From Bacteroides rodentium JCM 16496 (GTDB taxonomy: Bacteria; Bacteroidota; Bacteroidia; Bacteroidales; Bacteroidaceae): a stretch of 64,000 nucleotides of DNA. The notes beneath the pieces were generated by a model that saw only the letters and a program-made list of their open reading frames with translations, ran no database searches and was not told where the DNA came from. The DNA is taken from NCBI RefSeq assembly GCF_000614125.1, contig NZ_BAKJ01000002.1, positions 62,001 through 126,000 of the forward strand, in the 5' to 3' direction. The translations under genes and the position numbers were made by a program. Shown piece by piece: positions 29,699 through 51,356 of this stretch (its first letter is position 1; every line of letters starts with the position of its first letter).

Positions 29699-30871
29699 TT
29701 ATTCGTACAGCGATTTCGCAATCCCCATTTCCAGTCCACGAAGCTCTGCCAGTCCACGCAGGCGGCCGATGCAGGAGTAGCCGGGGTTGGTCTTCTTCTT
29801 CAAGTCGTCCACCATCTGGTGCCCGTGGTCGGGACGCATCGGGATGGAGACACCGCGGCGTTGCTGTAGCTCAAGGAAGGCTTTCATCACACCGTACATA
29901 TCCACATCCCCTTCCAGATGGTTGGCTTCATAGAAATTGCCTTCGGCATCGCGTTGGGTGCTGCGCAGGTGGACGAAGTTGATGCGGTCGCCGAATTGCT
30001 GCATCAAGGCGGCACAGTCGTTGGCACTGCTCACGCCCAGCGAACCGGTGCAGAGGCAGAGGCCGTTGCTCTTGTTGGGCACAGCATCAATCAAGGCCTG
30101 AAAGTCGGCACCGCAACTCATGATGCGCGGCAGGCCGAGGATGGACATGGGTGGGTCATCGGGATGAATCACCAGCTCTACCCCGGCTTCGTCGGCCACG
30201 GGACAGATTTCGCGGAGGAAGTAAATGAGGTTACTGCGCAAGCGCTCGGGAGTGATGCCTTTGTAGCGGTCCAGCTCCTGCTGGAACTGTTCCAGGGTGA
30301 AGCTTTCTTCCGAGCCGGGCAGTCCGGCAATCATGTTGCGGATGAGCAGTTGTTTGTCTGCCTCCGTCATCTGTTCGAAGCGGGTGCGGGCGCGTGCTTT
30401 CTCTTCGTCGGTGTATTCGGCTTCCGCACCGGGACGACGCAGCAGGAAGAGGTCGAAGGCGATGAAGGCGGCACGCTCGAAGCGCAGGGCGCGGCTGCCA
30501 TCGGGTAGTTCGTAAGCAAGGTCGGTACGCGTCCAGTCCAGCACAGGCATGAAGTTGTAGGTGACGATGTTGATGCCGCACTTGCCGAGGTTGCGGAGGC
30601 TTTCCTTGTAGTTGTCGATATACTTCTGGAAGTCTCCGGTTTGGGTTTTGATATGTTCGTGTACGGGTACACTTTCTACTACAGACCAGCGCAGGCCGAC
30701 GGATTCGATCATTTCTTTCCGTTTCTTGATTTCCTCTACTGTCCATATTTCTCCGTTGGGGATATGGTGCAAGGCATTTACAATGCCGGTGGCTCCGGCT
30801 TGTTTGATGTCCCAAAGGCTTACCGGGTCGTTGGGACCGTACCAGCGCCAGGTTTGTTCACAAAGAATCAT
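29699..30871 (-). CDS. uxuA: D-mannonate dehydratase
   Basis: A 390-residue cytoplasmic enzyme that converts D-mannonate to 2-keto-3-deoxy-D-gluconate in glucuronate catabolism. It matches UxuA from end to end: EQTWRWYGPNDPVSLWDIKQ at the start, VLDWTRTDL, HPDDPPMSILGLPRI with metal-binding His/Asp, SLGVSSANDC, and MRPDHGHQM near the C-terminus. It is the last gene of the long minus-strand PUL and sits 151 bases after the SDR gene. Its presence ties the PUL to a uronic-acid substrate. No frame breaks. Confidence 0.96.
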   Translation of the reverse strand: MILCEQTWRWYGPNDPVSLWDIKQAGATGIVNALHHIPNGEIWTVEEIKKRKEMIESVGLRWSVVESVPVHEHIKTQTGDFQKYIDNYKESLRNLGKCGINIVTYNFMPVLDWTRTDLAYELPDGSRALRFERAAFIAFDLFLLRRPGAEAEYTDEEKARARTRFEQMTEADKQLLIRNMIAGLPGSEESFTLEQFQQELDRYKGITPERLRSNLIYFLREICPVADEAGVELVIHPDDPPMSILGLPRIMSCGADFQALIDAVPNKSNGLCLCTGSLGVSSANDCAALMQQFGDRINFVHLRSTQRDAEGNFYEANHLEGDVDMYGVMKAFLELQQRRGVSIPMRPDHGHQMVDDLKKKTNPGYSCIGRLRGLAELRGLEMGIAKSLYE

Positions 30872-30928
30872 AGGTTTGAGTTTTTAAGTAGTTTCGGAAG
30901 TTCTTCAATTGTTTAATAGAGCAACTTA

Positions 30929-30953
30929 ATTCTCCTCCCCGGAGGAGGGGAAT
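30929..30953. repeat. Short palindrome related to the 24.3 kb inverted repeat
   Basis: ATTCTCCTCCCCGGAGGAGG then GGAAT is an almost perfect palindrome. It repeats the GC-rich core of the arms at 24289-24521. It lies between the SDR stop and the uxuA start and may act as an RNA hairpin. Confidence 0.65.
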
Positions 30954-31022
30954 CGAATAGCCTTGCTTTATTGTGCAGGACTTCTGAAACTTAATTGTTG
31001 AGTATTCAGTTTTTGCAAGTAA

Positions 31023-31833
31023 TTACATCGCGAATGCGTTGAATCCTCCGTCCACTACAGCCACTGTACCTGTCACGAAGCTGGAAGCATCGCTGATGAG
31101 GTATTGGATGGTTCCGCAAAGCTCTTCTGCACGGCCCATACGTCCGAAGGGAGTCTGGCGGATGACGTCTTGTCCGCGTTCCGTGTAGCTGCCGTCGGGG
31201 TTCGTCAGCAGGGTACGGTTCTGCTCCGTGAGGAAAAATCCGGGTGCGATGGCATTTACACGGATGCCTTCACCAAACTTCTTGGCAACTTCCGTAGCAT
31301 GAAAGCTGTGAAATTGGAGATGCCGGCTTTGGCGGCGGCATATCCGGCTACACGTGTCATGGGACGGAAAGCAGCATGCTGGAGAAGTTGACAATAGTGC
31401 CTGCCTTCTGCTCCACCATTGGTTTGAGGAAGACTTGTGTAGGCAGTACGGTTCCGGTCAAGTTTAATTCAAGCACCCGCTGGAACTCTTCTATCTTCAA
31501 ATCGAAGAATGTACCCGTAGGCGCGATGGTGGCACCCGGCATATTTCCACCGGCTGCGTTCAGCAGGGCATCCACACGGCCATAGGCTTTCAGAATATCG
31601 GCCAGGTTCTGTTCCAGCAGTTCGCGGTTCATCACGTCGGTTGTCAGGAACATGGCTTCGCCGCCGTTCTTCTTGATTTCTTCTACAAGGGCGTTGCCCA
31701 CTTCGGCTTTGCGGCCCAGGATGACTACTTTGGCACCCTCCTCTGCGAGGTGCAGGGCGATGGATTTGCCCAATACGCCCGTTCCGCCGGTGATGACCAC
31801 CACGCGGTCTTTGATGTCGAATAGGTTTTTCAT
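31023..31833 (-). CDS. SDR-family oxidoreductase, likely fructuronate reductase/mannonate oxidoreductase (two frameshifts)
   Basis: Reconstructed 270 residues. The Rossmann motif is VVITGGTGVLGKSIALHL near the N-terminus; the active-site Ser-Tyr-Lys set is represented by FSSM and GYAAAKAG; the C-terminus has VDGGFNAFAM. The gene precedes uxuA in the same direction. In Bacteroides this SDR type commonly takes the UxuB role, reducing fructuronate to mannonate with NADH. Breaks near 31374 and 31297 each fit one lost base; repair gives AFRPMTRVAGY and ATEVAKKFGEG, both normal SDR text. The reaction is inferred from context. Confidence 0.85.
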
Positions 31834-31908
31834 ACGTTTTTTATCTACTGATTTTGTATCTTTTCGGTTCGATATTGCAAAATTATGGAATTCTCTTTAT
31901 AGTTCTCC

Positions 31909-49239: not shown

Positions 49240-51053
49240 TTATTTGTAGGCTTCTTTCAGCTCCTCATACCATTTCTGTAGGACGAAGAATGCCTTCTTC
49301 TTTTGTCCTTTGTCTGATACCAGTCCCTTGCGGTTGAAGTCATCTTGTATTTCGGGTACGTGACGACGGGGAGAGCGGAAATCTTTCAAAATCCATGGTG
49401 TGGTGCCTGCCAGTCCTGGAATGCGTTTCAGCATTTGGATGTGGCGTATATACATGTCTTCTTGATATTCTTCGGTGAAGCGTTCTTGAGGTGACCCGTG
49501 TCGGCCGTATAAGGCACCGCCTCCAAGTTCGCTGATGAATACTGGTTTAGGGGTTTCGAACGTCCAGTTGACGCGATCGCATTTCTCGGAGTCACCATCG
49601 TACCAGCCTACGTATTCGTTAAAACTTATGATGTCCAACACTTTGTCCAACGGGTCGTTTACTGTCATCAGGCCGGGACTGACTTCTTCTTTTTCCATAG
49701 CTGCACCTATCAGGCGCACATTGTCGAGACTTCTTGCTTTGTTGGCCAAGTTGGTCAGAAAGGTCAGACGCGGTTTGCTGATGGGAGTTTCGTTGGCAAT
49801 GGACCAAATGATGATGTTGCAACGGTTTTTGTCGCGTGCAATCATGTCGCATAACTGTTGTTCGGCATTCCGATAGGTCTCTTTGTTTTCCCAATGAATG
49901 GTCCAATAAACAGGAATCTCTGACCATACAAGGAAGCCCATCCGTTCGGCTTCGCGCACCATTTCTTCATTGTGAGGATAGTGGGCCAGGCGCACGAAGT
50001 TGCATCCAAGTTCCTTGGCCCAGCTCAGCAGGTGTGTGCGTGGTCTTTAGAGTAGGCACGACCGCTGTAGTAGGCTGTTTCTTCGTGGATGCTGATGCCT
50101 CGGCAAAATATTTCCCGATTGTTCAGCATTATCTTGGTGCCTTCGGTACGGATGGTTCGGAAACCTATTTCGTCAGTTACTTTATCAGCCCCGGAAGTAA
50201 TGGTTATGGCATATAGCTTGGGGTTTTCCGGAGTCCACAAAAGGGGGGCGGCTTTTACCTGGAAGGCGGCATAGCCGTCTGCATTGGTGGTAACCTCTTT
50301 CTTGATCTTCAATTCAGGAATGTCTAGCGTTACTTTTTGGGATTGGGTGTTGCCGTCCAGTTGTACCCAACCCTCGATGGTGCGTGTGTCGTCCTTTTTC
50401 AGCTGTACATAATAGTCGCGGATGTAGGTCGAAGGCGTTTCTACCAGACTGACCGGGCGGGTGATACCTCCAAAATTCCACCAATCAGCATTTATGGTGG
50501 GCACTGCTTCGGGAATCCGTTTGTTGTCTGCTTTCACTACCAGGCTATTTGTACCTTCTTTCAGCAAGTGGGTTATTTCAAAATTGAAGGGGGTGAATCC
50601 TCCTATGTGCCTGCCCAGTTGCTTGCCATTCAGCCACACGATGGCTTCGTAGTTGACTGCTCCGAAGTTCAAGAAAAGCCGTTTGCCGGGTTCTAATGAG
50701 TATTCGAAGTGTTTCCGATACCACACGGTTCCTTCGTAATAGTATAATTGGGGGCGTTGTGTGTTCCAGTCGCCGGGGACAAATAGCAGTTTGTCTGTTT
50801 CGAAATCATACTCTTGTAGTTTGGTCTTGTCCGAATAGGTTTTATCTTGGGCATATCCTCCGTCGTAGGGTTTCAGTCGATAATCGTAGTATCCGTTTTC
50901 AAACGGGTCGACGATGGTTTTCCATTGTCCGTCGAGCGAGGTGGTCTGGCGTGAACCGATATTCATGATGGAAGGAGCCTGTTGGGCAAATGTCTCTGCT
51001 GCTAGGAGGGATGCCAATAGGAAAGCAAAAACTGTTTCTTGTAGGTGTTTCAT
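49240..51053 (-). CDS. GH2-family beta-glucuronidase-like enzyme (one frameshift)
   Basis: Reconstructed 604 residues, the usual length of a compact three-domain GH2 glucuronidase. Signal peptide LLASLLAAETFAQ. Jelly roll: LFVPGDWNTQRPQLYYYEGT, VWYRKHFEY. Ig-like domain in the middle. Barrel: FCRGISIHEET, CNFVRLAHYPHNEEMV, acid/base in IIWSIANETP, nucleophile Glu in VFISELGGGALYG. The break near 50031 fits loss of one C (CCC to CC) and restores HAHTLLSWAKELG. First gene of the second PUL, with a promoter at 51127-51135. Beta-glucuronidase is favoured by size and motifs and by the UxuA/SDR genes downstream; beta-galactosidase remains possible. Confidence 0.85.
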
Positions 51054-51126
51054 GTCATTAAATTTTTAGGGTTATACCGGTCGGTTTTTATTACCGGCAG
51101 ATTGTACTTCTTTGCACAAATCGATG

Positions 51127-51135
51127 GCAAATGTA
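51127..51135 (-). promoter_or_regulatory. -7 promoter element for the second PUL operon
   Basis: The minus strand reads TACATTTGC, a full TAnnTTTG match, 74 bases before the GH2 start at 51053. TTTC at 51159-51162 is a possible -33 with a 23-base spacer. Confidence 0.55.
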
Positions 51136-51323
51136 TCATCATATTATATGTTTTCTCCGAAAGAAACTACATCTTGGCTACTACAAATCCTTATTTCGAC
51201 TACATCAATGCTTTCTCATGCTTGTGACAAATACTTGGTTTATATGTGATTATATATTTTTATTGGTATCTCATCTATTCTGTTAAAGAGGCTGATGGGA
51301 AATGTAGTTTGAAAGAAAGAGAT

Positions 51324-51332
51324 TATCTTTGC
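51324..51332 (+). promoter_or_regulatory. -7 promoter element for the sensor/HTH regulator
   Basis: TATCTTTGC is a full TAnnTTTG match, 24 bases before the start codon at 51357. No TTTG at the right -33 distance. Confidence 0.55.
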
Positions 51333-51356
51333 TATGCGAAATAAATATGGACTACT

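Follow-up and report, generated by a model that had tools for sequence, protein, structure and literature searches.

A conserved Bacteroides polysaccharide utilization locus with its own divergent regulator and a predicted glucuronate-rich substrate

Which polysaccharide is consumed by the products of a run of 11 genes on the minus strand of Bacteroides rodentium JCM 16496, and how is this run controlled? The genes occupy positions 29699-51053 of the stretch analysed here, called the window throughout (64,000 nucleotides; contig NZ_BAKJ01000002.1, positions 62,001 to 126,000), and a regulator gene of 957 aa lies divergently beside them (51357-54230, plus strand). Since the genes for SusC and SusD adjoin each other and are accompanied by carbohydrate-active enzymes, the run is a polysaccharide utilization locus (PUL). 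It is a real, conserved PUL with its own regulator, and a chance association is ruled out because the gene order recurs in Bacteroides fluxus (loci L031/L083) and, with differences, in loci L025 and L032. An earlier note on this DNA had described the minus-strand run from 51053 to 29699 with its gene order and coordinates, which were borne out when frames and Pfam domains were read again; its view of a uronate-directed PUL that has a dedicated divergent regulator and the UxuA route was likewise supported. Our analysis allows the class of substrate to be narrowed down to glucuronate. The predicted substrate is a beta-linked polysaccharide consisting largely of glucuronic acid, probably a polyglucuronate of the glucuronan type, possibly from fungal walls. 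This prediction and the proposed pairing of the regulator with an operator are the interesting parts of the locus.

Read downstream from the promoter, the locus begins with GH2a (49240-51053), followed by SusC (46022-49058, profile-searched through its B. fluxus counterpart), SusD (44230-45994, the low end being set by a tblastn match), two lipoproteins that might be surface glycan-binding proteins, one small (129 aa, 43806-44195) and one with DUF4466 (42718-43767), and a protein of about 995 aa, the helix-propeller protein, which combines a double beta-helix (PF12708) with an SMP30-like propeller (SGL; 39616-42601). The remaining genes encode GH2b, with DUF4982 and malectin domains (36798-39450), a PL38-type lyase (PF05426) fused to a GH88 hydrolase (34407-36783), GH2c, with DUF4982 (31909-34354), a short-chain dehydrogenase/reductase (SDR; 31023-31833), whose pieces match the SDR of B. 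fluxus at 53-65% identity, and the mannonate dehydratase UxuA (29699-30871). The Pfam domains found on the locus were SusC, SusD, DUF4466, PF12708 with SGL, GH2 with DUF4982 and malectin, PF05426 with GH88, GH2 with DUF4982, SDR and UxuA. The identification of the small lipoprotein as DUF5018, proposed earlier, found no backing, as no Pfam match was obtained for the 152-aa counterpart in L025 (the window's own 129-aa copy lay outside that scan).

The three GH2 enzymes are all predicted beta-glucuronidases. Their best matches among solved chains were 6d1n/6d89 for GH2a, 6d50/6d8g/5uj6 for GH2b and 6d1p for GH2c, with GH2b and GH2c being near-full-length relatives of 6d50/5uj6 and 6d1p, respectively. 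We take 6d1n, 6d50/5uj6 and 6d1p to be the B. uniformis glucuronidases BuGUS-1, -2 and -3, to which all three GH2 genes of the locus would be closely related. GH2 beta-glucuronidases are characterized by an NxK motif that binds the carboxylate and by a catalytic acid/base within an NE motif; the NE motif was present in all three enzymes, as was NxK (FNRKG, INNKG and VNQKG). In addition, the best NCBIfam model was that of beta-glucuronidase in every case, outscoring the galactosidase models (GH2a was scored as a fragment). The three GH2s are close relatives of gut enzymes that have known crystal structures and are likely glucuronidases; BuGUS has been described as a glucuronidase of the loop-2 class that carries a DUF and a carbohydrate-binding module (PMC6351562). 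Two of them had previously been regarded as galactosidase-like, and on this rested the suggestion of a neutral sugar such as galactose in the polymer. A substrate mixing glucuronate with galactose, of the gum arabic or arabinogalactan type, from which the GH2s would split galactose, is in keeping with the GalA and GalB galactosidase models, which match GH2b and GH2c below cut-off, and with the deposition of some relatives as beta-galactosidase. However, the nearest solved chains, the NxK motif (3/3) and the top NCBIfam model (3/3, below cut-off) favour glucuronidase, and none of the genes in the locus was assigned to a galactose route. A galactose-containing polymer was set aside on GH2 identity and NxK as very unlikely, and the neutral sugar lost its footing together with the galactosidase-like reading.

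Evidence of a different kind comes from the lyase-hydrolase fusion. Its PF05426 domain was clear (314.8 bits against a cut-off of 22.2), and the solved chains hit by the lyase half were 3nfv and the 8bdq group (8bdq: E 3.6e-56, residues 43-370), of which 8bdq is presumably a PL38 and 3nfv a B. ovatus protein. The GH88 half was nearest to 3wiw, with which it shares the Asp-bearing motifs HDLGF and IDN(M/L)MNLE, their two Asp being, we assume, the catalytic residues of GH88. Through its match to 8bdq the lyase half would resemble the PL38 lyases (BoPL38, Aly38A, CUL-I, TpPL38A, RiPL38 and Amuc_0778), but it differs from them in being fused to GH88. Known PL38s are reported to act on alginate, beta-1,4-glucuronan, hyaluronan (HA) and chondroitin sulfate (CS) (PMC13027841; PMC11790493). 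An alginate utilization locus could accordingly be read from the PF05426 lyase, BoPL38 and Aly38A being described as alginate lyases (PMC11381880, PMC13027841). Yet gut loci with PL17 alginate lyases are reported to hold PL6_1 as well (PMC5966431), neither PL6 nor PL17 was assigned in our locus by domain scans, and it is hard to see what three glucuronidases would do on alginate; this substrate was set aside on gene content and appears highly improbable. Turning to catabolism, the B. fluxus SDR passed the NCBIfam cut-off for D-mannonate oxidoreductase and UxuA was clear, with UxaC and one partial KduI-family match located elsewhere in the genome. Given the GH2, PL38-GH88, SDR and UxuA assignments, each assigned catalytic gene except that of the helix-propeller protein fits glucuronate, and the combination of GH2 glucuronidase relatives, PL38-type lyase-GH88, mannonate oxidoreductase and UxuA argues for beta-linked glucuronate and not galactose.

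Is this set of genes kept together in other genomes? An intact syntenic copy, in which every gene is one open frame, was found in B. fluxus YIT 12057 (L031; L083/L054 by identity). It contains the regulator, SusC, SusD, the small gene, DUF4466, helix-propeller, GH2b, PL38-GH88, GH2c, SDR and UxuA in identical order, but lacks GH2a ahead of SusC. When 149 genomes of the genus were searched with the regulator, 66 had a match at E<=1e-150; the 30 regulator loci kept comprise 23 with 51-100% identity, each from a different genome, and seven with 34-47%, and the flanks of 16 of the 23 orthologue loci were examined. Both PL38-GH88 and GH2b were present in 15 of these 16 flanks, the remaining one, L084, having neither. 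Together with the window, L037, L038 and L040 the flanks make up 20 related loci (genomes G081, G111 and G097 fall outside this count), of which 19 have PL38-GH88 no more than 20 kb from the regulator and 18 have GH2b (all except L037 and L084). Some flanks deviate in detail: L089 and L090 are truncated where the fetched DNA ends, the fusion is broken in L096, lyase and GH88 are two separate genes in L093, and in L088 the cassette follows a second regulator copy, about 14 kb from the copy searched. In most of these loci SusC shares only some 30% identity with its B. fluxus counterpart, and therefore the enzyme cassette and the regulator stay together while the importer changes. The label 'unfamiliar', which the earlier note had given to the PUL, thus holds in one respect only: the gene order recurs in other genomes, while our literature search, which left PULDB and dbCAN-PUL aside, found no paper characterizing this PUL on a substrate. 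A mini-locus in genome G021 (L046) combines a stand-alone PF05426 lyase, a relative of GH2c (60%), GH88 and a hybrid two-component regulator, so that the same enzyme theme occurs there under a different regulator type.

Where such a polymer might come from was approached through the helix-propeller protein and the neighbours of the sister loci. Above cut-off, the helix-propeller protein matched only PF12708 and SGL in Pfam, and in a model of its B. fluxus counterpart the double beta-helix that marks GH55 is predicted to take a GH55-like fold. Next to the regulator, GH30 was found in five of the 16 flanks (L087, L089 and L094 by Pfam; L097 and L098 by similarity), accompanied by a DUF5016/5125/5121 protein in the three that were scanned for it (L087, L089, L094). 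The nearest solved chain to the one GH30 searched was 5ngk, which we take to be an endo-beta-1,6-glucanase, the GH30 of a Bacteroides beta-1,6-glucan locus. The sister loci share with that locus the pair of GH30 and DUF5016/5125/5121 protein; in contrast, the window has no GH30. Beta-1,4-glucuronate is reported from walls and exopolysaccharides of Mucorales (PMC6433966, PMC10180729). The GH55-like fold and the GH30 of five sister loci are a hint of fungal-wall polyglucuronate; GH18 and GH9 in the distant helix-propeller locus L035 and GH3 relatives close to the cassette in six other loci point the same way. We tentatively consider, as a possible though rather unlikely case, a PUL dedicated to this polymer, with a GH55-like surface enzyme, a lyase-hydrolase fusion, three glucuronidases and a one-protein sensor with a 33-bp operator. 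If this were true, it would be the first PUL for fungal-wall polyglucuronate, and the drug-reactivating gut glucuronidases would be by trade exo-polyglucuronidases.

A scan of species genomes with a piece of the helix-propeller protein gave 12 loci, B. uniformis not being among them (such a scan may omit near relatives), and the set from SusC to UxuA was found in order in three of the 12, namely B. fluxus L031, L025 (without GH2c) and L032. Helix-propeller relatives at 43-79% identity occur without the cassette, as far as the available DNA extends, in L026-L030 and L033-L036. Ten neighbouring genes in L026, L029, L030 and L036 encode tRNA synthetases, TPR, SecA, nucleoside hydrolase and similar proteins, and the distant locus L035 holds SusC/D with GH18, GH9 and a glucosamine-isomerase-type gene. 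As a clue to the substrate these neighbours were discarded, being mostly housekeeping genes and carbohydrate-related only in L035; since several of the relatives lie beside housekeeping genes without the cassette, the helix-propeller protein may have another or broader role.

If polyglucuronate is the substrate, SusC/SusD and the two lipoproteins would, by their families, bind and import its chains, and the secreted helix-propeller protein may act first, either on the chain or on attached glucan. In the periplasm, by homology, the lyase half would cleave 4-linked glucuronate through beta-elimination and removal of the unsaturated end residue would fall to the GH88 half, while three exo-beta-glucuronidases of differing domain make-up, as their relatives of solved structure suggest, would trim saturated ends. 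According to the established pathways, glucuronate would then pass through UxaC, encoded elsewhere in the genome, the SDR (as mannonate oxidoreductase) and UxuA to 2-keto-3-deoxygluconate, and unsaturated glucuronate would pass to KduI. For a fungal wall, the GH55-like enzyme would open the wall glucan, and the fusion and the three glucuronidases would attack the polyglucuronate internally as well as at both types of end.

Several observations weigh against this substrate. The deposited names of the chains matched by the GH2s are mixed (GH2 protein, beta-galactosidase, beta-galactosidase/beta-glucuronidase), and none of the three GH2s reaches its NCBIfam cut-off (GH2a being a fragment). The GH55-like fold by itself would not demonstrate an activity, the GH30 of five of the 16 flanks, which has no equivalent in the window, might serve a second polymer, and in the other nine of the 12 helix-propeller loci no cassette was seen within the available flanking DNA, some of it on short contigs. 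Moreover, an unsulfated glycosaminoglycan (GAG) fits the enzyme data nearly as well, owing to the heparan activity of a GH2b relative, the nearness to 3wiw and the GAG-acting PL38s. The locus would then use an unsulfated GAG or a similar capsule (heparosan, hyaluronan, unsulfated chondroitin) mainly for its glucuronate. The closest chain to the GH88 half, 3wiw, is presumably heparin-specific, and we take BuGUS L2 to be the relative of GH2b. BuGUS L2 is reported to have taken glucuronate off an unsulfated heparan nonasaccharide (90% cleaved) and to have hardly cleaved a sulfated one (8%) (PMC6712278), and two PL38s are described as acting on the GAGs HA and CS (PMC11790493, PMC13027841). However, among the gene assignments in the locus there is no hexosaminidase, no sulfatase and no classical GAG lyase (the small lipoprotein was outside the scan). 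A GAG is an unlikely though serious candidate, and polyglucuronate remains the probable one.

How, then, is the locus switched on? In a domain scan at E<=1e-3 the divergent regulator showed only Reg_prop, with a weak C-terminal match to a helix-turn-helix, and none of the domains HisKA, HATPase, receiver and AraC; the hybrid two-component regulator of L046 shows all four, so that the window's regulator is not of that type. Ahead of the first gene lies a -7 element, TACATTTG (51128-51135, minus strand), and 40 bp ahead of this a direct repeat, TTGATGTAGT / AAGATGTAGT, with a spacing of 33 bp (51166-51208, minus strand), which is proposed as the predicted operator of the regulator. The box TTGATGTAGT was read from the window, L025, L031, L037 and L040, and each locus was scored by one sum for two boxes 33 bp apart and TAnnTTTG 39-42 bp further on, against 60 dinucleotide shuffles. 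This arrangement beat all 60 shuffles in 21 of the 23 orthologue loci, including L068, L069, L071 and L072, in which the boxes are weak (5-6 mismatches in all). The two misses, L055 (18 of 60 shuffles as good) and L064 (1 of 60), fit the gene content, because the flank of L055 (L084) has no cassette and L064 corresponds to that one of the two regulator copies in L088 which does not adjoin the cassette. Without the motif-defining loci and L072, 15 of 17 still beat every shuffle, although these include a group of six (L058-L063) that are close to one another and therefore do not count as independent events. Among the seven distant paralogues, two (L077, L079) beat all shuffles and five did not. 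A whole-genome search with a pattern modelled on the window's repeat gave one exact match, that of the window, and two with two mismatches, compared with one for the reversed control.

The SusR-like regulons of Bacteroides are similar in that they combine a sensor-regulator without kinase domains with a direct-repeat site of long spacing, but in their published motifs the boxes lie 67 or 77 bp apart (PMC3878776), a spacing different from the 33 bp of the window. We infer that imported fragments are the signal sensed by the regulator, which would then act on the direct repeat with its 33-bp spacing to switch on the surface module; the repeat and its conservation are the observed part.

The 'single clear -7 element' reported earlier was confirmed as TACATTTG at 51135-51128, but it is not single. 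Ahead of GH2b, a hairpin with a T-run is followed by a -7-like TACATTTG (39493-39486; the whole feature spans 39486-39537, minus strand), and a further -7-like element, TAATTTTG, precedes the SDR gene (31878-31885, minus strand). Of 16 loci, 14 have TAnnTTTG ahead of SDR, at a distance of 33-63 bp from the gap's end, versus 1.1 expected from shuffles, and the two loci without it, L039 and L091, are those in which the gap is shortest (41 and 28 bp); in a smaller first set of SDR gaps all eight had the element. A hairpin of -17 kcal/mol or stronger, counted without a shuffle control, lies ahead of the enzyme module in five of 11 gaps, and in L037 it precedes PL38-GH88. A terminator search at the GH2b hairpin found none, the loop exceeding the length that the method allows. 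The SDR -7 element (14/16) and the hairpin before the enzyme module led us to set aside a single-promoter operon; one promoter for all 11 genes is unlikely, and three transcription modules, for surface proteins, enzymes and glucuronate catabolism, are likely on the sequence evidence, because of the hairpin and -7-like element before GH2b and the -7 element before SDR.

Gut beta-glucuronidases are studied for reactivating drug glucuronides, and their natural substrates are poorly known. With relatives of three such enzymes beside a lyase-hydrolase fusion, a catabolic pair and one regulator, the locus provides a testable substrate prediction, polyglucuronate, and its promoter offers an inducer read-out. 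The proposed regulator-operator pair adds a spacing unlike that described for SusR-like regulators (PMC3878776).

Is the locus functional in this strain? Eight of the 11 genes are split: GH2a and the helix-propeller gene into two frames, SusC, SusD, GH2b, PL38-GH88 and GH2c into three pieces each, and SDR is likewise broken; the small lipoprotein, DUF4466 and UxuA are unbroken. These breaks could mean that the locus is decaying and the genes are real pseudogenes. In the same assembly (4.88 Mb in 148 contigs, the window being part of contig C147), however, rpoB is in two frames, a second uxuA-like copy is in pieces and alaS is whole. Furthermore, the database protein P0018 spans both helix-propeller fragments end to end at 99.3 and 99.7%, and P0137 spans the three PL38-GH88 fragments end to end at 95-99%; both are listed without source and may not be independent of this assembly, and many further, less close relatives are also full-length. 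Because rpoB is also broken and near-identical full-length proteins exist, assembly error is much the most likely cause. True pseudogenes were set aside in view of rpoB and the full-length homologues, and have only the slightest chance of being the explanation. The second UxuA-like gene (G000:C143:83550-84690; L002-L004), 40-50% identical and in three pieces, is an observation in its own right.

GH2a takes a special position in the locus. In the window it sits between the promoter and susC, none of the 16 flanks had a gene labelled as GH2a, and its GC content is 48%, compared with 57% for the part from GH2b to UxuA. In 158 genomes of the genus only G120 (81%), besides the source genome G000, passed E 1e-180 in a search with GH2a, and in the 20 kb examined at the G120 gene the other reference genes were not found, except for distant GH2 matches at the same spot. 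Membership of GH2a in the ancestral set was rejected on these flanks and on the G120 relative that stands apart from the cassette; GH2a appears to have joined the locus later, under the same promoter.

Immediately beyond the operon, a GH3 gene lies on the plus strand (26279-28504). A relative of it occurs near the cassette in six other loci, the one in L093 being 66% identical and GH3 by Pfam. No operator match was found upstream of the window's gene, which was thus rejected as a regulon member and stays a conserved neighbour. Upstream of it, at 26050-26165, several near-identical direct and inverted copies of a short motif around aaacatggggatgtttt were noted. An aquaporin-like gene, judged by eye, is located between GH3 and UxuA (28771-29457); none of the other fetched loci over 5 kb gave a match to it. 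The window also holds a second SusC/SusD pair at 2989-7920, and the SusC there is likewise split between frames.

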